Source: a virus
Length of the DNA stretch: 31,083 nucleotides
IMG/VR virus record: IMGVR_UViG_3300002334_000133
Coordinates: 1-31,083 of that record
Direction: 5' to 3' (one strand)
This document shows, piece after piece, positions 18,646-30,663 of this stretch. Numbering within the stretch: the stretch's first letter is position 1; the number at the start of each line of letters is the position of its first letter. The notes under the pieces were generated by a model that had not been told where the DNA came from, did not search any database, and worked only from the letters and a program-made list of their open reading frames with translations. The position numbers were made by a program, and so were the translations under genes.

Positions 18646-18982
18646 CGACAACAACGGCAACGGGACCGACTCCCTGGCCCAGCTCTCGATCGACGTCGCC
18701 AGGATAGCGACGGCGCTCAACGGGTACGACGGCGAGTCCGGGCTAATCCACCAGCTCCGAGATATGGCCCGAGCCCAGGCTACCCAGCTCCAGGAGTCCC
18801 GCCAGGGCCGGTCCGACGTCTACCAGAAGTTCGAGGCCCTGGAGAAACGCGTCGAGTCGGAGCTCTCGAGTGTTCGGGACCTGGCGATAACGGCCCACAC
18901 CTGGGCGCGAGCTCTCTCCTGGTTCGTCGGGATCGCTGGGACCGTCGGCGGCGGAGCGGTGATCGCCCGGTTATTCGTCTAA
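18635..18982 (+). CDS. XhlA-like protein with coiled coil and C-terminal membrane helix (holin-like)
   Basis: The protein has 115 residues. Residues 1-15 are Asn/Asp-rich and polar, 15-85 form a long coiled coil (QLSIDVARIATAL, YQKFEALEKRVESELSSV), and residues 92-113 (LSWFVGIAGTVGGGAVIARL) are one membrane helix at the C-terminus. This architecture is that of XhlA/hemolysin-type phage proteins, which act in holin systems. It could equally be an inner-membrane spanin-like protein. It overlaps the preceding gene by eleven bases. No endolysin follows. This is the last rightward gene of the late block. Confidence 0.6.
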   Translation: MADNDNNGNGTDSLAQLSIDVARIATALNGYDGESGLIHQLRDMARAQATQLQESRQGRSDVYQKFEALEKRVESELSSVRDLAITAHTWARALSWFVGIAGTVGGGAVIARLFV

Positions 18983-19020
18983 CGAATCCACGAGATAACA
19001 GAGGATCCCGAGTCGCGTCG

Positions 19021-19050
19021 ATCTTTTGAACTGGAGAGCTCCGAAAAGAT
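19021..19050. promoter_or_regulatory. Inverted repeat ATCTTTT...AAAAGAT with promoter-like boxes
   Basis: Between the convergent genes ending at 18982 and 19076, ATCTTTT (19021-19027) and AAAAGAT (19044-19050) flank 16 bases containing GGAGAGCTCC. TTGAAC at about 19026-19031 and GATAAG at 19048-19053, separated by 16 bases, could be rightward promoter boxes, but nothing in that direction is downstream except the antisense of the next gene. The same words occur before the protease and HNH genes. Likely a control element; direction unclear. Confidence 0.35.
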
Positions 19051-19075
19051 AAGCTCGATCGGATCTTGAGTTGAT

Positions 19076-19588
19076 CTAATCTTTTACGAGTGAGAGGTCC
19101 AGGATCGTCGCCTCGATACGCTTCCGTACACCCGAGCTCGAGGGCGTCTCCAGGAGCGGCGGCATATTCGCCAGGACTGTCTCGAGACGTCGCTCCAGCT
19201 CCAGCGCGGTCGTAATGCTCTCTCTCCCTGGGAGTTTGTAGTCCTGGCGGTGGATCATCTGGGCCACCTGGACGAACTCTCGAGCGATCGACACGGCTCC
19301 GAGCTGGGCGACCCGACGCCCTTCCATATCCTCGAAAGCCTCTCTCGCCATCGGCTCGAGCTGGACCAGGATCGCTCGGAGCTTCCGGGCGTTCCGGTAT
19401 CCCCAGGCGGTCCACCAGATAATCCTCGGGATGAACCGGATCAGGGTTCCCAGGCGTCCCTCTCCCTGGGCTCGGTCGGCGTCGATTACGGCGTCGATTG
19501 TGTCCATGTGGAGCGACTGGAATAAGCGGGAAACATGGTGATCCTGGGCGCTTCGATTGTCGGTGTTATTCATGTTCGATTCGGTCAT
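19076..19588 (-). CDS. Lone leftward gene, unknown function
   Basis: The product has 170 residues if it begins at ATG 19588, which has AGGT eight bases upstream; a longer reading to 19669 lacks support, and an ATG nine bases or so inside is also possible. It is mostly helical: DTIDAVIDADRAQ, a short hydrophobic Trp patch FIPRIIWWTAWGY (about 60-72), then amphipathic helices to the end. No DNA-binding motif is obvious. It is the only leftward gene between 95 and 27787 and faces away from the DUF3850 operon, an arrangement often seen for regulators and lysogeny or exclusion genes. Function unknown. Confidence 0.65.
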   Translation of the reverse strand: MTESNMNNTDNRSAQDHHVSRLFQSLHMDTIDAVIDADRAQGEGRLGTLIRFIPRIIWWTAWGYRNARKLRAILVQLEPMAREAFEDMEGRRVAQLGAVSIAREFVQVAQMIHRQDYKLPGRESITTALELERRLETVLANMPPLLETPSSSGVRKRIEATILDLSLVKD

Positions 19589-21143: not shown

Positions 21144-21463
21144 TGTCGAGATTGAACTGGTGTCCTGGCGTCGATATGGCGTGTCTGTTCGATATCGAGA
21201 CTCGCCGCCCGGTCTGTTTGGTGTGCGGTGATAAACGTCGGCCGCTGATTCGCGACGGCGTACACGGCCCGATCGCAATAGCGGACCGACACGAATTCCC
21301 GTTCCACAGGATGAGGACCTTTAATAACCTGGCCGCTCTCCCGGATCACCTGTACGGCCTGGTCCTTTCAATGATGGATTCTGGACCACATAGAATGCTC
21401 CGGCCGAGACGCCACGGAGCGGAGTATTTACGTCGCCACCAGGGACCGCCGATCCGGTTCTAA
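21143..21463 (+). CDS. Hypothetical protein with Cys pair
   Basis: The protein has 106 residues, starting MSRLNWCPGVDMACLFDIET with C7 and C14, followed by VCLVCGDK (a C-x-x-C pair at about 25-28), RRPLIRDGVHG, and a His/Arg-rich second half (HRMRTFNNLAAL, PRRHGAEYLRRH). The four Cys may bind zinc. It is coupled to the preceding small gene. Its stop (TAA) is inside the operator-like palindrome at 21460-21477. Confidence 0.55.
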   Translation: MSRLNWCPGVDMACLFDIETRRPVCLVCGDKRRPLIRDGVHGPIAIADRHEFPFHRMRTFNNLAALPDHLYGLVLSMMDSGPHRMLRPRRHGAEYLRRHQGPPIRF

Positions 21464-21477
21464 TGTCGGGACATTAG
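21460..21477. promoter_or_regulatory. Operator-like palindrome, copy A
   Basis: CTAATGTCGGGACATTAG is a perfect 18-bp inverted repeat with central GG. Its core ATGTC-GG-GACAT recurs as ATGTC-CC-GACAT at 22478. Each copy lies some 55-65 bases before a similar TATAGC promoter-like element. Good candidate for a repressor site. Confidence 0.6.
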
Positions 21478-21478
21478 C

Positions 21479-21498
21479 GAGCGATCGCTCCGACGTCG
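21479..21498. repeat. Two adjacent palindromes next to copy A
   Basis: GAGCGATCGCTC (21479-21490, perfect 12-bp palindrome) is followed directly by CGACGTCG (21491-21498, perfect 8-bp palindrome). With the operator-like palindrome just before, three palindromes follow each other in 39 bases. The second copy of the module (22490-22510) retains only part of the first. Confidence 0.5.
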
Positions 21499-21514
21499 AC
21501 AATCGGCCGCAGAT

Positions 21515-21545
21515 TTGAACTAGAGAGCCCAGCTGGGATTATAGC
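21515..21545 (+). promoter_or_regulatory. Promoter-like sequence before the HNH gene
   Basis: TTGAAC (21515-21520) and TTATAG/TATAGC (21539-21545) are separated by 18-19 bases. CCCAGCTGGG lies between. ATG of the HNH gene at 21558 begins only about six bases after the expected start of transcription, so the mRNA would have almost no leader. A related copy lies at 22533-22560. Confidence 0.45.
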
Positions 21546-21557
21546 GACGGACCATAA

Positions 21558-22052
21558 ATGGCAATCCTGAAAACATGCACAGTAAAACAGCCTCGAGCGC
21601 CCAGGGGGAAACGGAAAACATGCTGGAATGTCGGCTGTCAGAATCTCCGCCAGGGCCGAGCTCGTAAGTGGTGTCCGGAACACTTTTTCGGATCGACGTA
21701 TTACACGGAACACCACTGGGGGACCGCCAGGCTAATCGCCATTTATGCCGCGTGTGAGCTCGAACATCGACGCCACTACCTGGACGTCTGTCGGCCGACG
21801 TGCGCGATCTGTGGCGAGCCGACGGCGAAACCAGAAGTCGACCACCTGGACCCGATGAAAGGCGACGACCGCTCCGGAGAGGATTGTCGACACCACCAGG
21901 CGAATCTCCGGGTCCTATGCCACGACGACCACGCCCTGGTTACAGCGAACCAGGCGAGAGCTCGAGCGGCGCGGAAGGGACCGCCGCCCAGGAAAGCCGC
22001 CAGGCTAATAAACCAGGAGCGCCGGGCCGAAGCTCGGGCGGCTCGCCGGTAA
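21558..22052 (+). CDS. HNH endonuclease with extra N-terminal zinc motif
   Basis: The 164-residue protein has a complete HNH nuclease: CAIC (C82, C85), EVDHLDP with H96 as catalytic His, N116, and LCHDDH with C121 and H125. A second Cys/His set lies before this (TCWNVGC with C22 and C27, KWCPEH with C39 and H42), perhaps an additional zinc site for DNA binding. The last 35 residues are basic and helical. Free-standing HNH enzymes in phages are either homing endonucleases or packaging-related nucleases; here the enzyme is far from the terminase, favouring a mobile role. It is coupled to the next gene (TAATG). Confidence 0.85.
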   Translation: MAILKTCTVKQPRAPRGKRKTCWNVGCQNLRQGRARKWCPEHFFGSTYYTEHHWGTARLIAIYAACELEHRRHYLDVCRPTCAICGEPTAKPEVDHLDPMKGDDRSGEDCRHHQANLRVLCHDDHALVTANQARARAARKGPPPRKAARLINQERRAEARAARR

Positions 22053-22402
22053 TGTTCGGCGCTATTTCCAGCCTCAACTACGACGCCGATCCTAACGATC
22101 GAGGACCAGCTCCGGAACCAGGCGACGAGCTCCTGGTCTGGTCGGTATCGCTCCGGAGCTTCCGCGCTTACGTCGTTCGATCCTCGAGGCGAGTTAACTC
22201 GGAAGTTAATCCGGCCAGGTGGAATCTCCGACTAATGAGAATCCCGGTCGACCAGCTCCACGAGGGCTACCAGGACGTCTATCGCTACACGGCAAAATCC
22301 CGACAACGGACCCGGCTCCAGCAAGCCTGGCGACGAGCTGGCCGTCCTGGTGAATTCGACGCCTGGGTATCGGATCAACATAACCAGGCGTCGGGGAACT
22401 GA
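22052..22402 (+). CDS. Hypothetical partner of the HNH endonuclease
   Basis: The protein has 116 residues, begins one base before the end of the HNH stop and is certainly co-translated. Pattern: MFGAISSLNYDADPN, then beta strands (GDELLVWSVSLRSFRAYVVR, RWNLRLMRIP), then a basic helix (AKSRQRTRLQQAWRRAG). It may be a DNA-binding partner, but there is no signature. The small size, basic C-terminus and coupling argue for function with the nuclease. The pair is framed by the two operator/promoter modules. Confidence 0.55.
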   Translation: MFGAISSLNYDADPNDRGPAPEPGDELLVWSVSLRSFRAYVVRSSRRVNSEVNPARWNLRLMRIPVDQLHEGYQDVYRYTAKSRQRTRLQQAWRRAGRPGEFDAWVSDQHNQASGN

Positions 22403-22477
22403 AATCCGAGCTACTTAAGTAACTCCGGCCCTCGAGCTCGAGCTGTCCGTCGACTCCAGGTATGCTCTCCGGGTGAA

Positions 22478-22489
22478 ATGTCCCGACAT
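22478..22489. promoter_or_regulatory. Operator-like palindrome, copy B
   Basis: ATGTCCCGACAT, the reverse complement of the core in copy A. It is in the 301-base gap 22403-22703, which holds no gene but is filled with control-like sequences: this palindrome, the TATAGC copy, an AAGATCAT/ATGATCTT inverted repeat and palindrome site 3. Confidence 0.55.
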
Positions 22490-22532
22490 AACGGGGGCGA
22501 TCGTCAAATCGAATTATTCTCCAGTTCAGAAT

Positions 22533-22560
22533 CCCAGCTCGATTTATAGCGCACGCCATA
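22533..22560 (+). promoter_or_regulatory. Second copy of the promoter-like element
   Basis: CCCAGCT, then TATAGC after the same 12-base offset as in copy A (22533 to 22545; 21528 to 21540), followed by CCATAAAT in both. In copy A this last word runs into the start codon of the HNH gene; here the ATG is ATC, so the start codon is lost and the element stands alone, about 150 bases upstream of the next gene. Confidence 0.5.
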
Positions 22561-22577
22561 AATCACGATCGTTTTCG

Positions 22578-22613
22578 AAGATCATCACGACGCCGGCAGT
22601 TCGTAATGATCTT
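22578..22613. promoter_or_regulatory. Inverted repeat AAGATCAT...ATGATCTT
   Basis: Eight-base arms at 22578-22585 and 22606-22613 are perfect complements with a 20-base loop. The right arm runs into TT and CC. The words GATCTTTT resemble those before the protease (4564-4570) and after the lysis-like genes (19021-19027). Terminator or operator; undecided. Confidence 0.4.
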
Positions 22614-22626
22614 TTCCGGCCTCGGT

Positions 22627-22639: not shown

Positions 22640-22703
22640 GAATCTCCAGCCTGGTTCGCGTATCATGTGCGGGACTCGCTTCCACAGGAAAGGCCCTGGA
22701 CAC

Positions 22704-23642
22704 ATGAAAACCGCCCGACACCCGAACGTCCCATTCCGCCGACTAGCTCTCTCCGACGAACGTCGAGAGGTCCAGATCGGCCGGGGGCTATACACAACCC
22801 AGGGAGGCGAACGGCTCGCTCTCCCGTTCGACGAGCTGGGCGTTCCCCAGGTATTTCTCGATCGTAAACTCTGGCGGGAATCCGACGACGGAATCCACAG
22901 GCCCGGAGCGGACTTCCGGACGCCGAATCTCAATCCCTGGCAACAGCGCGTAATCGCCGCCATTCGGGATAATCTGTGGAACGACTTTCCGGCGTTCTGG
23001 TACAAGCTCACACTCGGCCACGATCTCCACGTCTCGACCTATGGCAATCTCTACGGAAAGCATTTCCATACCGGCTGGGCGAATCCATTTCACCCGGAGT
23101 TAATCGACGCTCCGCTCGATCCCTGGTTCCTCTCACACCCGGACCAGGCGAAACTCCACAAGCTCCACGGCGAGATCGCCGGGCTCTCCGGAATCGACGT
23201 GGCGAACGCCTGGCTAGCAACCCAGCCACGGCCGACAGCTCCCGCCGGATTCGTCGAGAATCTAGGCTGGTTATCTGGAGCGAAAGTTACGACAGCGTTC
23301 GTCTCTAAGGAAATCGCCGAGCTCGTGGCAGCTTCCGAGTATCACGATTTCGACCACCACGAGGTCGGGACGTCGGCGAACGCCGAGGCGAACTCCGAAA
23401 CCGCCCTGGTGGCCACGACCTCGATCTCTCGAGTGGCTGGGTCGCCAACCGACTCGGACCCGATATATCAGTCGGTCGCTACGATCACGGCGGACACGAC
23501 CGAGGATTTCGAGGAACACGGAATTTTCAACAACACGACCGGGCCGACAATGATGGATCGAAACGTAACCGGGGGCCAGTCGGTCGTCTCCGGAAATCAG
23601 GTCCAGTACACCTACCAGCTCACGAAAAACCCGGAGGCTTAA
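22704..23642 (+). CDS. Phage structural protein, unknown role
   Basis: I choose ATG 22704 (312 residues) because it has AGGAAAGG upstream and the region before it is full of regulatory palindromes; the frame stays open further to 22473, but that part has regulatory words. Residues 75-140 contain a Trp/His-rich part (DFPAFWYKLTLGHDLHVSTY, HTGWANPFHPEL). Residues 225-312 match a pattern common in phage structural proteins: TTSISRVAGSPTDS, VATITADTTEDFEEHGIF, MMDRNV, YTYQLTKNP, a beta sandwich domain. It begins the second virion-gene block. Confidence 0.6.
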   Translation: MKTARHPNVPFRRLALSDERREVQIGRGLYTTQGGERLALPFDELGVPQVFLDRKLWRESDDGIHRPGADFRTPNLNPWQQRVIAAIRDNLWNDFPAFWYKLTLGHDLHVSTYGNLYGKHFHTGWANPFHPELIDAPLDPWFLSHPDQAKLHKLHGEIAGLSGIDVANAWLATQPRPTAPAGFVENLGWLSGAKVTTAFVSKEIAELVAASEYHDFDHHEVGTSANAEANSETALVATTSISRVAGSPTDSDPIYQSVATITADTTEDFEEHGIFNNTTGPTMMDRNVTGGQSVVSGNQVQYTYQLTKNPEA

Positions 23643-25453: not shown

Positions 25454-27406
25454 ATGCTCCTGTACCTGGGGCCACGTCCCGCCGCTGTCGAAGTGGAGCC
25501 GGGCGAGTGGTTTTTCGATATGTGGCCAGGGACGACGGGCGTCCTCGATCTCCGGACGATCGCCGAGCGCGAGTCTCACGAGGTCTTAACAAATCATTGC
25601 ATCTGGTCGAGCTCGAGCCCTCTCTCTAATCCGAATCTGGTACTCCTGGGCGAGCGCGGCGACCGGCTAACTCCAGGCGTCCGGGCGTCCCTGGAATCCG
25701 AGTTCGCTATCGGGGAGCGCATTGTTTCCGACGGCCTGGTTCAAGGGATCGGGGAGGTTCTGAATCGCCACGGTTCAGTTACCGACGAAACCTGGTCGCC
25801 TATTATTTCGAACGACCGACGCTGGGTCGAAATGTGGCTGGCCGGGCGCGTTATGCTCCAGGAGCGGTTCGACCCAGTTAAGCATCCCTGGGTATACGAA
25901 ATGGAACAGCAGATATACCGGGCCGTTAAAGCCCAGGCGGACGACCCGGCGTCCCGGATGCCAGCGGACCAGCACCTAAAAACCCTGGACTATACGCGGG
26001 ATAAATACCGCCTCAAAAACGACCAGGCGCTCGAGTTGTTGAAAGCTCCCGAGGCTCCCGACCAGGGATTTCGCCCACACGGAACAGACTTCGACGACGA
26101 CTTTAATCGGAGCGACGAAGCTCTCGAGGCGGACGCCAACTGGAACGAACCGAACGGCTCGAGCTGGGAGGTTCTAAGTAACCAGGCGAAAGTCTCGTCC
26201 TCGGGCGGGTACGCTTACTGGCAAACTCCCTACGCTTACGAAACTATGGAATCGACTCTTACATGGGTAAGCCAAACCCGTATTAGTGGTGGTGTCACAG
26301 CCGGGCCAGCCGTCAAGAATGAGAACAATTCGTCGCGGCATATGCACTACTACATTCACGACGACAATTTCGGCGGGAACACTTACCTAATCGAGCGGAC
26401 TGGTGGAAGTTCCTCGGCGTTCGCGTCAACGACTGGAACATTCACGACGTTAGACGTTATGCGGATTCGCCACGCCGCCAGTAAGTTCGATTGTTTCCTA
26501 AACGGTGTTCCCCACCTGGCGGGAATGGATACCTCTCACGCCACACACGGCCACTTAACGACGGGTATGTATGGCTCCTGTTCGAACGGGACTGTAATCG
26601 TCGAGGACTGGTCGTCGACCGACTCACTGGTTACGCCGTCGCCGCCGCTGATCTCGAGAGCTGACGACAGCGCTAACACGATTCGCGGTGCGACTCGATA
26701 CACAGTCCGCGGAGCTGGGACGCCAGGCGGTGGTCTAGTCGAGGTCGACCTGGCCGGAGCCCAACCGGCCTCGACCGGCGTCCTCTCCCTGGTGAAATAT
26801 CTACTCGCCGTCGCTGGAGCCCAGCCCGCGCCCTCGGGAGCTCTCTCCCTGATCCAGTACCAGATCGCTCTCGCTGGAAACCAGCCTGGAGCCGCCGGAG
26901 CTCTCTCCCTGATCCGTTACCTGGTGACACTGGCCGGAGCCCAACCGGCCTCGACCGGCGAGCTCTCCCTGGTGAAATACTTCCTCTCCCTAGCTGGGAA
27001 CCAGGCCGCCCCAGCCGGGACGATCGCTGGAGCTCTGACGATATTCGCCTCGATCGCTGGGAACCAGGGAGCGCCGTCCGGAGCCCTCTCCCTCGTGAAG
27101 TACCTCATATCGACCGCTGGAGCCCAGGGAGCGCCGTCGGGATCGTTGAACCTGGTTCGCTACCTGATCTCTCTAGCGGGAGCCCAGGCCGCGCCGAGTG
27201 GAACCGCTCGATCCCTGGAATATGTAACCCTGGCCGGGAACCAACCGGCCTCGGCTGGGACGATTGCGTTCGCTACGGCCGTCCTGATGTACTTCGACTT
27301 ATTGGCCAGATATGCTCCGAACCTGGGAGTCGACGCCGCGTTCGCGATCGCGCTGGACGCCGCCGCCAGGAGAAACAAATATCTCGAGGGAGAGGCCTCG
27401 ATTTAG
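25454..27406 (+). CDS. Multidomain fibre-like protein with lectin domain and nine short repeats
   Basis: This 650-residue protein has three parts. Residues 1-210 are mixed and unidentified. Residues ~214-400 form a concanavalin/LamG-like domain: DDDFNRSDEALEADANW (the F-x-R-x-x-G/A-x-L-x-x-x-W start), then strands to VIVEDWSSTD. Residues ~433-612 consist of nine copies of a 20-21 residue repeat, AG-x-Q-P/G-A-x-x-G-x-L-S-L-V-K-Y-L. The last 40 residues are helical. Repeated AG-Q-GA-type units are expected to fold as a beta solenoid or stacked sheet, forming a stalk. GGGGGA just before ATG 25454 supports the start. It may bind glycans on the host surface. Confidence 0.65.
   Translation: MLLYLGPRPAAVEVEPGEWFFDMWPGTTGVLDLRTIAERESHEVLTNHCIWSSSSPLSNPNLVLLGERGDRLTPGVRASLESEFAIGERIVSDGLVQGIGEVLNRHGSVTDETWSPIISNDRRWVEMWLAGRVMLQERFDPVKHPWVYEMEQQIYRAVKAQADDPASRMPADQHLKTLDYTRDKYRLKNDQALELLKAPEAPDQGFRPHGTDFDDDFNRSDEALEADANWNEPNGSSWEVLSNQAKVSSSGGYAYWQTPYAYETMESTLTWVSQTRISGGVTAGPAVKNENNSSRHMHYYIHDDNFGGNTYLIERTGGSSSAFASTTGTFTTLDVMRIRHAASKFDCFLNGVPHLAGMDTSHATHGHLTTGMYGSCSNGTVIVEDWSSTDSLVTPSPPLISRADDSANTIRGATRYTVRGAGTPGGGLVEVDLAGAQPASTGVLSLVKYLLAVAGAQPAPSGALSLIQYQIALAGNQPGAAGALSLIRYLVTLAGAQPASTGELSLVKYFLSLAGNQAAPAGTIAGALTIFASIAGNQGAPSGALSLVKYLISTAGAQGAPSGSLNLVRYLISLAGAQAAPSGTARSLEYVTLAGNQPASAGTIAFATAVLMYFDLLARYAPNLGVDAAFAIALDAAARRNKYLEGEASI
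26750..27295 (+). repeat. Nine tandem 60-63 bp coding repeats
   Basis: Each unit codes for about 20 residues starting AGAQPAS/AGNQPAS and ending LSLVKYLL. The units at about 26750 and 26930 are nearly identical over some 50 bases, while units 5, 8 and 9 are diverged (e.g. GTIAGALTIFASI). The pattern suggests repeated expansion and drift of a structural module. Confidence 0.85.
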
Positions 27407-27418
27407 AGGGAAATAAAA

Positions 27419-27787
27419 ATGGGCGCAAAAGAAAAAAACATAGCAGTCGACGAACACTGGTTTAAGGGTGAGAATCGGACGTTCCGTTATCCGTGTGTCG
27501 ACGGGGCCGATCCGCCGGTCGCCCTGGATATCTCGGCATTCGGTTTAATCTGGGAGCTGAAAACCTCACTCGAGGCCACGACAGCGATCCTCTCCCGATC
27601 GACCGCCGCTAGCGAGATCACGTTCGACACAAACGGGACCCGAGCCCTGGTGGCCATAACTGGGGCGATCACCCTGGCGATCGACGCCCGGCCATACGTC
27701 CACTTACTCCGGCGAATCGACTCCGGCCAGGTAATGGTCCTGGGGTTTGGGAACGCCACACTCCAGGACGCCGGGACGATCACGTAA
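27419..27787 (+). CDS. BppU-like baseplate/fibre attachment domain protein
   Basis: The protein has 122 residues, with an Ig-like beta pattern: WFKGENRTFRY, ALDISAFGLIWELKTS, ITFDTNGTRALVAITGAI, ARPYVHLLRRIDSG, VLGFGNATLQDAG. This is the arrangement found in BppU-type N-terminal domains of baseplate upper proteins, which attach fibres or bind other tip proteins. AGAGGGA eight bases before ATG 27419 is a strong ribosome binding site. It is the last gene of the rightward block; a terminator hairpin follows. Confidence 0.6.
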   Translation: MGAKEKNIAVDEHWFKGENRTFRYPCVDGADPPVALDISAFGLIWELKTSLEATTAILSRSTAASEITFDTNGTRALVAITGAITLAIDARPYVHLLRRIDSGQVMVLGFGNATLQDAGTIT

Positions 27788-27836
27788 GAATCTCGCTCGA
27801 GCTATCTCTCCGCCAGGCTGTACGCCTAACGCGGAA

Positions 27837-27865
27837 AGGCCCTGGGATTGGTGGTCCCAGGGCCT
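27837..27865. terminator. Bidirectional terminator-like hairpin between converging genes
   Basis: AGGCCCTGGGA (27837-27847) pairs perfectly with TCCCAGGGCCT (27855-27865), loop TTGGTGG. It lies between the rightward block (ends 27787) and the leftward block (ends at 27891), an ideal terminator place. Its core resembles the hairpin at 8283-8306, and like that one it is beside a 13-bp palindrome. Confidence 0.7.
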
Positions 27866-27874
27866 CTCTCTATC

Positions 27875-27986: not shown

Positions 27987-28321
27987 TACTCCAGGACCTC
28001 GCGACACTCGGCCCGGAACCTCTCGACCTTATCGCCGAAATCGAACGTCGCCGGGTCGAAGTCGATCACGGTCGAGCCGTCGGAGAATTGCTGGGCGAGC
28101 TCTCGATCGACCCAGACCGGGACCTCGGGGGCGTGTTTGTTGATCGGGACCGACGTCTCCGCTCCCTGGGTCCTGGCCAATCGCTCCAGGCTGTCGCCGA
28201 TCCGTCGCATAGCCGCGACGTCGGAGAATACCTGGGAGAATTCGTCGATCTCGAGTGGGCCGGTCGCCGTGGCGATTACGGCCTGTTCGATCTTGTATTC
28301 CATTTCGGTTAGTTCTGGCAT
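27986..28321 (-). CDS. Small hypothetical protein coupled to the ParB-like gene
   Basis: The product has 111 residues. ATG 28321 overlaps the ParB-like stop as TAATG and has AGGAAG seven bases upstream; the frame is open further upstream but that part runs inside the ParB-like gene. Residues 1-45 are helical (EMEYKIEQAVIATA, EIDEFSQVFSDVAAM), the middle has GDSLERLARTQG, and the end is an acidic/hydrophobic stretch (STVIDFDPATFDFG) and a helix. No family is recognised. It is probably a partner in the same process as the ParB-like protein. Confidence 0.6.
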   Translation of the reverse strand: MPELTEMEYKIEQAVIATATGPLEIDEFSQVFSDVAAMRRIGDSLERLARTQGAETSVPINKHAPEVPVWVDRELAQQFSDGSTVIDFDPATFDFGDKVERFRAECREVLE

Positions 28322-30663
28322 TAGAGAGCTTCCTTTCCGTCGAAAACCACATCCTCGTCGATTTCGGCGTTCTGTATGTATTTCGGCATAGCGTCCAGGG
28401 TGTGAGTCGAGCGGCAGACCATGAGCTCGAGACTCGGCCCCAGCTCCGGCTCCGGAATCAACCACTCCCGCTCGGTCCACCTGGCCATCGTTTTCGGAGC
28501 TACACCCTCGACCAGCTCGCCGGTATCGGTGAACCACTCCGACGGGAGCCCGACCCAGGCCACGGCCTGTTCGCGATCCTCGTCGGCGATAGAGGGGGAG
28601 GGGGGGGTGTCTCGCTTTTCTGGGGCGAATTCGGCGTCCTCAGATTCGGTCCCTTTCAGGATCGGAGAGCACACCTGGAGAATTTTCGCCAGGGCCTCGT
28701 CGGTGAAAAACGCCGCTTTCCCTGGGTCCATTCTCGATCCGACCATGAACTCGAACGCCAGGAGCTCCACGGACCGATCGTCCAGGGTGTCGATCTCGAC
28801 CTCGAGTCGGTCCCAGTCGACGTCCGGGCCGTTCCACGCGCCGTTCGGCCATGTAACAGCTTCCTCGATAATCGACAGCGCTCCGGCCAGCGCGTGTCCG
28901 ACGAACGCCGTCGGGAAATTCTCCGAGCCTCGGTGGCGTCGTTCGTTTTCCTCGGCGACGATCCCGTAGTTCTCAAGGCCTAGCGGGACCTCTCCCTCTC
29001 CGCCGACTAACACGGCCAGGAGAGCCGTAGCGGGTCCTCGGCCGATTGTGAAGTACTTCGACGCCTCGGCCGTTACGGCGATCGCTTCCTCGCGTCGGAG
29101 CTCTCCCTGGGCGTCCAGTTTGTCGGCTTTCTTGACGAGCTGTTCGGCCAGCCATTCCATATCGGTTACGACGTCGATCGCCTTATTCGAATCGGAGTCG
29201 ATTAGCTGGGTAGCGACAGCGCGCCGAGCTGGGTTTTCGAAACCGCTCTCGTCGGCGACAGCGCCTCGGACGGATTTCCAGTCGACCAGGTGGACGTCGC
29301 CGTGGACGCCTACCAGCTCGGCTCGCTTGTTTTCGTACCCTGGAATCCTGGCCAGGGCGTCGGTTACAGCGTCCGGGAGCGACCACATTCCGGAGCCCAG
29401 GGAGTAGCCGTATTTCGTCGAGACGTCCAGGACGGCGATCGGGACGCCGAATTTCTTCTCGAGCTCCTGGGATCGTTTGACGGCGGCGGCTCGTTTGGCG
29501 GCGGCGTTAGTCGGAGAGCTCTCGCCCTCGGATTTTTTAGCGGTCGATTTTCCTCCGCTCTTATCCTGGTCGCGCTTGAATTTGTTCCGGTTCCCGTCCC
29601 ACTTTCGGTTCTGGAAAGTCCAGCGGCCGAAACCCTTACCGAAATCCCGGATCGTCTCCGGGTCGACACCCTCTCCGAGTACTTCCCAGGACGGGAGCTC
29701 CATAAGCTCTCGAGCTACCAAGGACGCCCGGAACATTTTCCCGGATACGTCGTCCAGTGGACGCCACACCAGGCGCGGCTCGGGTCGTCCGGAGCGCTTA
29801 CCGCCCAGGCGATCCGTTAGGGCCTCGACGACCTGGATAATCCCGACGACCTGGGGCCGTTTGGAGTGTTCCTCGAGCTGGATCGAATCCGGGAGCGCGT
29901 TGTCGATCACGTTCTCGATCTCTCCGACCAGTGAGGCCCGGTGTCCTGGGTCCTCGGTCTGTCGTGGATCGAACGCCAGGAGCGGCCGGGTAGCGTTCAA
30001 CGTGAACAGGCCCGACTCGACGAGCTCGAGGACCGACTGGGGGAGTATGTCGATCGCTCGGATAGCGTTCGCGACGGCTGGCTGGGAGCGGCCGAGAATC
30101 GACTGGATTTCCGGACCCTTTAATCCCTCGGTCTGGAATCGTTTCGCCGCCCTGGCCAGCTCGAGAGGCGTTAGGTCCTTTCGGGCCTGGTTCTCCCCCA
30201 TGACGATTCGCGCCGCCTGGGCGTCGTCCACCTGGTCGATCAATGCCAGGACCGTCGGCCGCGCCGCTCCGAATTCCAGGGTGTCGAAGAAATGCGACTG
30301 GGCCTCGTGTTTTTTACGCTCGCCCTGGCCCTTTATGTAGTCCCAGGATCGAGGCGCGAAATCCGTGTCCGAATCCTTTCGAATCTTGTGGTCGCCCTCG
30401 AGCTTCGCGGCGGCGACTCGACGGTGGCCGTGTAGCAGTTCGAACCGTCCGTCGACGATCCGGACCGACACTGGGACCGCCTGGCCGTTCTGGTCCATGC
30501 TCTCTCGGAGCTCCACCAGGTCGCCCAGGTCGACGCGTGGCTGGAATGGACTCGAGTCGATTTTATCGACCGGGATAGTCCAGATTCCCGAGTCGTCGTC
30601 TACTGTCGCTCCGGCTATCCTGGCGAGCTGGAGTGGGTGGTTTTTGTTGGTGTTTTTTGCCAT
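28321..30663 (-). CDS. Large ParB-like partition protein (780 residues)
   Basis: N-terminal domain is a ParB/Srx fold (residues ~30-92) with PFQPR (39-43), VELRESMDQNGQAVPVSVR and GHRRVAAAKL (79-88), the nucleotide-binding box usually written GERR. After a longer than usual linker comes ENQARKDLTPLE (157-168) and a helix-turn-helix (LKGPEIQSILGRSQPAVANA, ~181-200) that in ParB reads the parS site. Ordinary ParB proteins have about 300 residues; the remaining ~500 (Lys/Glu-rich linker 355-400, then unidentified helical domains) are an extension. It could be a plasmid-phage partition protein, a DNA-binding regulator, or a ParB/sulfiredoxin-like nuclease. No ParA is in the window. Start: ATG 30663, GGAGA about 11 bases upstream. 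Confidence 0.85.
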   Translation of the reverse strand: MAKNTNKNHPLQLARIAGATVDDDSGIWTIPVDKIDSSPFQPRVDLGDLVELRESMDQNGQAVPVSVRIVDGRFELLHGHRRVAAAKLEGDHKIRKDSDTDFAPRSWDYIKGQGERKKHEAQSHFFDTLEFGAARPTVLALIDQVDDAQAARIVMGENQARKDLTPLELARAAKRFQTEGLKGPEIQSILGRSQPAVANAIRAIDILPQSVLELVESGLFTLNATRPLLAFDPRQTEDPGHRASLVGEIENVIDNALPDSIQLEEHSKRPQVVGIIQVVEALTDRLGGKRSGRPEPRLVWRPLDDVSGKMFRASLVARELMELPSWEVLGEGVDPETIRDFGKGFGRWTFQNRKWDGNRNKFKRDQDKSGGKSTAKKSEGESSPTNAAAKRAAAVKRSQELEKKFGVPIAVLDVSTKYGYSLGSGMWSLPDAVTDALARIPGYENKRAELVGVHGDVHLVDWKSVRGAVADESGFENPARRAVATQLIDSDSNKAIDVVTDMEWLAEQLVKKADKLDAQGELRREEAIAVTAEASKYFTIGRGPATALLAVLVGGEGEVPLGLENYGIVAEENERRHRGSENFPTAFVGHALAGALSIIEEAVTWPNGAWNGPDVDWDRLEVEIDTLDDRSVELLAFEFMVGSRMDPGKAAFFTDEALAKILQVCSPILKGTESEDAEFAPEKRDTPPSPSIADEDREQAVAWVGLPSEWFTDTGELVEGVAPKTMARWTEREWLIPEPELGPSLELMVCRSTHTLDAMPKYIQNAEIDEDVVFDGKEAL
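28600..28607 (-). repeat. Eight-base G (C on coding strand) homopolymer inside the ParB-like gene
   Basis: GGGGGGGG at 28600-28607, with a further G5 at 28594-28598. On the coding strand it is CCCCCCCC and encodes Thr-Pro-Pro near residue 690. The reading frame is intact here. Such runs slip easily in replication or sequencing. Confidence 0.8.

Follow-up and report, generated by a model that had tools for sequence, protein, structure and literature searches.

Two putative promoter-operator regions flank an HNH endonuclease gene pair in a tailed phage

The window, that is, the whole stretch of 31,083 bases analyzed here, is an IMG/VR virus record that belongs to a tailed phage. On the plus strand, profile matches revealed genes for the small and large terminase, portal, protease, major head protein, and tape measure. 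Small genes occupy 17–22.4 kb, followed by a second block of probable virion genes at 22.7–27.8 kb, and a ParB-like gene lies on the minus strand at the right end. Replication, repressor, and integrase genes were not found among the proteins scanned in the window, and the genome is therefore probably incomplete.

Several elements outside the locus of interest were recorded. The ParB-like protein (28321-30663, minus strand, 780 aa) combines ParB N-terminal and ParB HTH domains with a long C-terminal part without assignment; no ParA was seen in the window to accompany it. A 650-aa ORF (25454-27406) ends in an array of ~20-aa repeats in a 60-nt register with AGAQPA/AGNQ motifs, and may encode a fibre or adhesion protein. 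Between the plus-strand gene ending at 27787 and the minus-strand genes, a very strong hairpin was predicted at 27834-27868 (AGGCCCTGGGA...TCCCAGGGCCT, z -4.3), likely a terminator between convergent units. The elements GATCTTTT/AAAAGATC occur at only four sites (69, 4529, 19020-19085, and 22608), all at or in non-coding gaps. Some of these sites are inverted repeats, as in the gap between the two convergent genes that end at 18982 and 19076, and they are candidates for a second common intergenic element or a terminator family.

The following features were assigned at the locus itself:

21462..21476, plus strand, copy 1 palindrome AATGTCGGGACATTA, putative operator (sequence)
21528..21559, plus strand, copy 1 core CCCAGCT-GGGA-TTATAGCG-ACGGA-CCATAAAT, putative promoter core (sequence)
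21558..22052, plus strand, HNH endonuclease, 164 aa (PHROG 144, E 5.2e-9)
22052..22402, plus strand, partner ORF, 116 aa, no family (sequence)
22357..22393, plus strand, strong RNA hairpin CGACGCCTGGGT...AACCAGGCGTCG spanning the 3' end of the partner gene (folding)
22477..22491, plus strand, copy 2 palindrome AATGTCCCGACATAA, 5+2+5, putative operator (sequence)
22533..22563, plus strand, copy 2 core CCCAGCT-CGAT-TTATAGCG-CACG-CCATAAAT (sequence)
22578..22613, plus strand, second hairpin, 12 of 13 bp, ending in ...GATCTTTTCC (folding)
22707..23642, plus strand, probable virion protein, first gene behind copy 2 (codon-frame scan)

The HNH protein carries the motifs CxxC, VDH, and NLRVLCHDDH, with the catalytic VDH...N...H in its sequence, and both profile match and catalytic motif identify it as an HNH endonuclease. 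It also matches 13 further PHROG families, nearly all of them HNH endonucleases, and shows weak similarity to HNH proteins of Gordonia phages; no Pfam match was obtained at E 0.1. The partner ORF gave no match above the curated cut-off in Pfam or PHROGs, and none in phages or in the PDB. Its start overlaps the HNH stop codon (TAATG), so that the pair is probably translated together. The HNH gene has no clear ribosome-binding site; several other genes of the phage have one. Both GC content (0.60–0.62) and codon index (0.69–0.73) of the unit are like those of the rest of the phage. The hairpin at 22357-22393 is predicted with an MFE of -23.8 kcal/mol (z -4.7, 0 of 200 shuffles) and has no U-tract. 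It likely represents the 3' end or a stabilizer of the HNH-partner mRNA.

As described in the earlier note, the HNH gene is preceded and the partner ORF followed by the same four words, in unchanged order and orientation, and their positions were confirmed: ATGTC-NN-GACAT at 21463 (copy 1) and 22478 (copy 2), CCCAGCT at 21528 and 22533, TTATAGCG at 21539 and 22544, and CCATAAAT at 21552 and 22556, the last without any other site in the window. The palindrome ATGTCNNGACAT occurs exactly twice in the window (21463-21474 and 22478-22489) versus 0.03 occurrences expected. Similarly, CCCAGCT-N4-TTATAGCG occurs exactly twice, the next-best site having three mismatches, and CCCAGCTNNNNTTATAGCG was found at the copy 1 and copy 2 sites only. 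The palindrome is longer in copy 1, where it sits within a perfect 8+2+8 repeat (CTAATGTC-GG-GACATTAG), than in copy 2 (5+2+5). Its first base in copy 1 falls inside the stop codon of the upstream gene, and the copy 1 core overlaps the HNH start codon (21558). From the palindrome to CCCAGCT there are 53 nt in copy 1; in copy 2 this gap is exactly 10 bp shorter (43 nt). Both copies lie in non-coding gaps in the same orientation, each ahead of a gene on the same strand, and the same operator-like and core words precede two putative transcription units.

No gene remnant was found behind copy 2, and the next gene starts ~80–145 nt further on. The ATC in copy 2 had been taken for a changed start codon. 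It is followed by 15 codons unrelated to HNH and then a stop, and hence there is no sign of a lost start. The ORF at 22707-23642 is open from 22473, with a codon signal from ~22700 and alternative starts at 22641 and 22665; its product matches PHROG 5417 only at E 0.006.

The string TTTGAACT(A/G)GAGAGC is common to the 19.0-kb intergenic region (19025) and the copy 1 spacer (21514). A third copy of the module near 19025 was considered and rejected, as the site has one word only in common with the module and lies between convergent genes.

The similarity of the two copies was compared part by part. The spacers between palindrome and core are no more similar to each other than random genome pairs (p = 0.21), and no similarity was found downstream of the module (p = 0.47). 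Leftward of the palindrome, a marginal similarity (p = 0.015) extends into the 3' end of the upstream gene. The full alignment covers 138 columns with 64% identity. Had the target been duplicated recently, the repeats around the insert would be nearly identical. The proposal that the HNH unit was inserted with duplication of the target control region therefore found no support, the words alone being conserved. Conserved words separated by freely varying spacers are typical of protein-binding sites rather than of a fresh target duplication, which supports a pair of promoters. The 10-bp spacer difference, the common orientation, the same-strand genes, the hairpin at the unit end, and the phage-like composition point in the same direction. 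We consider it fairly probable that the repeat represents two promoter-operator regions recognized by the same machinery. Against this, neither copy has a recognizable consensus promoter, the HNH gene lacks a clear ribosome-binding site, and the helical phasing comes from a single pair, so that chance would, by our estimate, produce it in about a fifth of cases; furthermore, there are two copies in one phage without relatives, and the record holds no recognized replication or repressor region. The earlier suggestion of a unit with its own promoter, under a regulator common with the next genes, fits best and is strengthened by the strong hairpin at the 3' end of the unit. That regulator may be a repressor or an activator.

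From the words, with their order, spacing, and position in non-coding DNA, and from the hairpin predictions and the order of the genes, we infer promoter activity, dimer binding, activation, and coregulation as follows. A dimeric DNA-binding protein would recognize the palindrome ATGTC-NN-GACAT. Its first base lies 55 or 65 bp ahead of the core CCCAGCT-N4-TTATAGCG-N4/5-CCATAAAT, and the core would contain the RNA polymerase contact. If TATAGC serves as the -10 box, transcription would start near 21552 and 22557, the palindromes would be centred near -84 and -74, positions that differ by one helical turn, and the HNH leader would comprise only about six bases. Such a one-turn offset would be expected for an activator acting from the same helix face; a repressor is possible. 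Copy 1 would drive the probably translationally coupled HNH-partner pair, with the transcript ending or being stabilized at the 22357-22393 hairpin, and copy 2 would drive the structural gene cluster from 22707 on. A sigma-70 promoter (TTGACA-N16-18-TATAAT-like) was not found in the scan of 21500-21560 or 22500-22565. The mismatch of both copies with sigma-70 suggests dependence on an activator, or a non-standard polymerase or sigma factor. Sigma-54, archaeal TATA, and T4-late readings were compared by eye and rejected for wrong spacing or a start inside the HNH gene. Two sites and one inferred regulator offer a testable handle on gene control.

The lineage of the phage is nearly without relatives in the collections searched. 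Neither the HNH and partner genes nor the upstream and downstream genes led to a usable relative in IMG/VR and INPHARED, and protein, DNA, and pattern searches yielded no relative covering the region and none with a single copy at an empty site. The only close relatives, two IMG/VR fragments (3300002334), are 100% identical and miss the region; some of their ends carry apparent Illumina adapter sequence, an assembly artefact. More distant relatives by TerL have only terminase, portal, and protease genes and one weak capsid match in common with the phage, the region lying outside. A portal-based genome scan returned one distant MAG contig without host clue. No match resulted from the search for a right-end extension, from distant blastn of both gaps, or from Rfam. 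The whole-module pattern had 0 matches in IMG/VR, and neither IMG/VR nor INPHARED yielded another exact copy of the module. Half-module patterns matched 41 other viral loci exactly, none with the ATGTC palindrome upstream, and these look like chance matches.

An ancient segmental duplication is possible, if unlikely. The HNH pair would have entered a single control region, or the region would have been duplicated together with the pair, and the copies would since have diverged everywhere except at the functional sites. The leftward similarity (CGTCG..CCAGG..TCCGG), on a side where copy 2 has no gene, would be explained in this way, but residual similarity is missing from both the spacers and the downstream sequence, the HNH unit shows no compositional difference, and no empty site came to light. 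An old duplication, if true, would leave the functional reading unchanged.

Rather improbable, in our judgment, is a phage-specific class of promoters that would control the HNH pair and the structural block jointly: the core would be bipartite and unlike that of sigma-70 promoters, a phage activator would read the palindrome upstream, and an attenuator hairpin at copy 2 would add an antitermination-like switch. That copy 2 by itself is an antitermination-type late switch, with a promoter and then a terminator within ~50 nt, appears improbable. Transcripts would then remain short unless a phage antiterminator carried them on to the structural genes downstream; copy 1 would lack the attenuation. 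The position of the structural genes agrees with this, as does the hairpin at 22578-22613, which starts ~15 nt after copy 2, ends in TTTTCC, and has no comparable counterpart after copy 1. However, its U-tract is short, the fold of 22570-22622 (MFE -13.9 kcal/mol) reaches a z of only -1.3, the terminator scan missed it, and no antiterminator is known. The hairpin may be a weak terminator-like or leader structure.

A highly improbable alternative is that the regions serve not as promoters but in recombination, partition, or replication of the DNA, on either side of a mobile HNH cassette; the ParB-like protein (28321-30663) would be one candidate to bind them. The palindromes match in size those that ParB HTH proteins bind, the phage encodes such a protein, and a nuclease unit is flanked by the sites; yet there is no palindrome copy near the ParB gene, the direct repeats are placed upstream of genes, and no recombinase was found among the proteins scanned.

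Genome-wide, the repeat is less extreme than it first appears. Comparable three-word chains are not unusual (six in the real genome versus ~0.5 per shuffle), and the full 138-column alignment ranks only 11th among the matches of the genome to itself; the others are mostly from coding sequence. Nevertheless, chance similarity is hardly credible, since the local alignment of the two gaps scores 19 versus a shuffle mean of 9.1 (sd 1.36), a score reached in 0 of 3000 dinucleotide shuffles, and since the core is accompanied by an identical, perfect palindrome upstream, in order, in both adjacent non-coding gaps beside one gene pair.

Among known systems, the extended start-associated sequences (SAS/ESAS) of Cluster K mycobacteriophages are the closest described arrangement to the promoter pair proposed here. 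SAS are short conserved words (GGGATAGGAGCCC) immediately upstream of gene starts, with many copies per genome, and about half of them have an inverted repeat upstream (17-bp IRs with a 4–13 bp spacer, adjoining the SAS); function and binding factor were left undetermined in that study (PMC3203893). Intragenomic repeats, a word at a gene start, and an upstream inverted repeat are found in both cases. In contrast to Cluster K, this phage has two copies only, a 12-bp palindrome located 43–53 bp upstream of the core, and a copy 2 that is not at a start codon. The words differ as well, and a GGGATAGGAGCCC-like word at the starts with an adjoining 17-bp inverted repeat was not found.

In P2/P4 late promoters, the activator Ogr/Delta recognizes a dyad near -55, and one activator serves several operons. 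By analogy, P2-type late promoters work in the proposed way, with an upstream dyad and a poor core promoter ahead of late genes. Their dyad, unlike that of this phage, is of the TGT..ACA type and closer to the start, and no Ogr-like zinc-finger activator was recognized here. In phiC31 and in L5/Bxb1-type phages, a repressor binds repeated intergenic sites, many per genome. The likeness lies in one phage regulator acting at repeated intergenic sites; the number of sites and their sequences differ, and no repressor was seen in this window.

Morons are genes inserted among those of a phage, with a promoter and a terminator of their own. Like them, the HNH pair has a putative control region of its own upstream and a strong 3' hairpin, the latter without a U-tract. 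Unlike morons, its composition is normal rather than atypical (the GC and codon values given above), and its control is apparently common rather than independent; a relative lacking the pair is not known. The repeat suggests a unit wired into the phage programme rather than an independent passenger. Phages are well known to use one regulator for repeated operator-promoter modules, and the present finding is a fresh instance.
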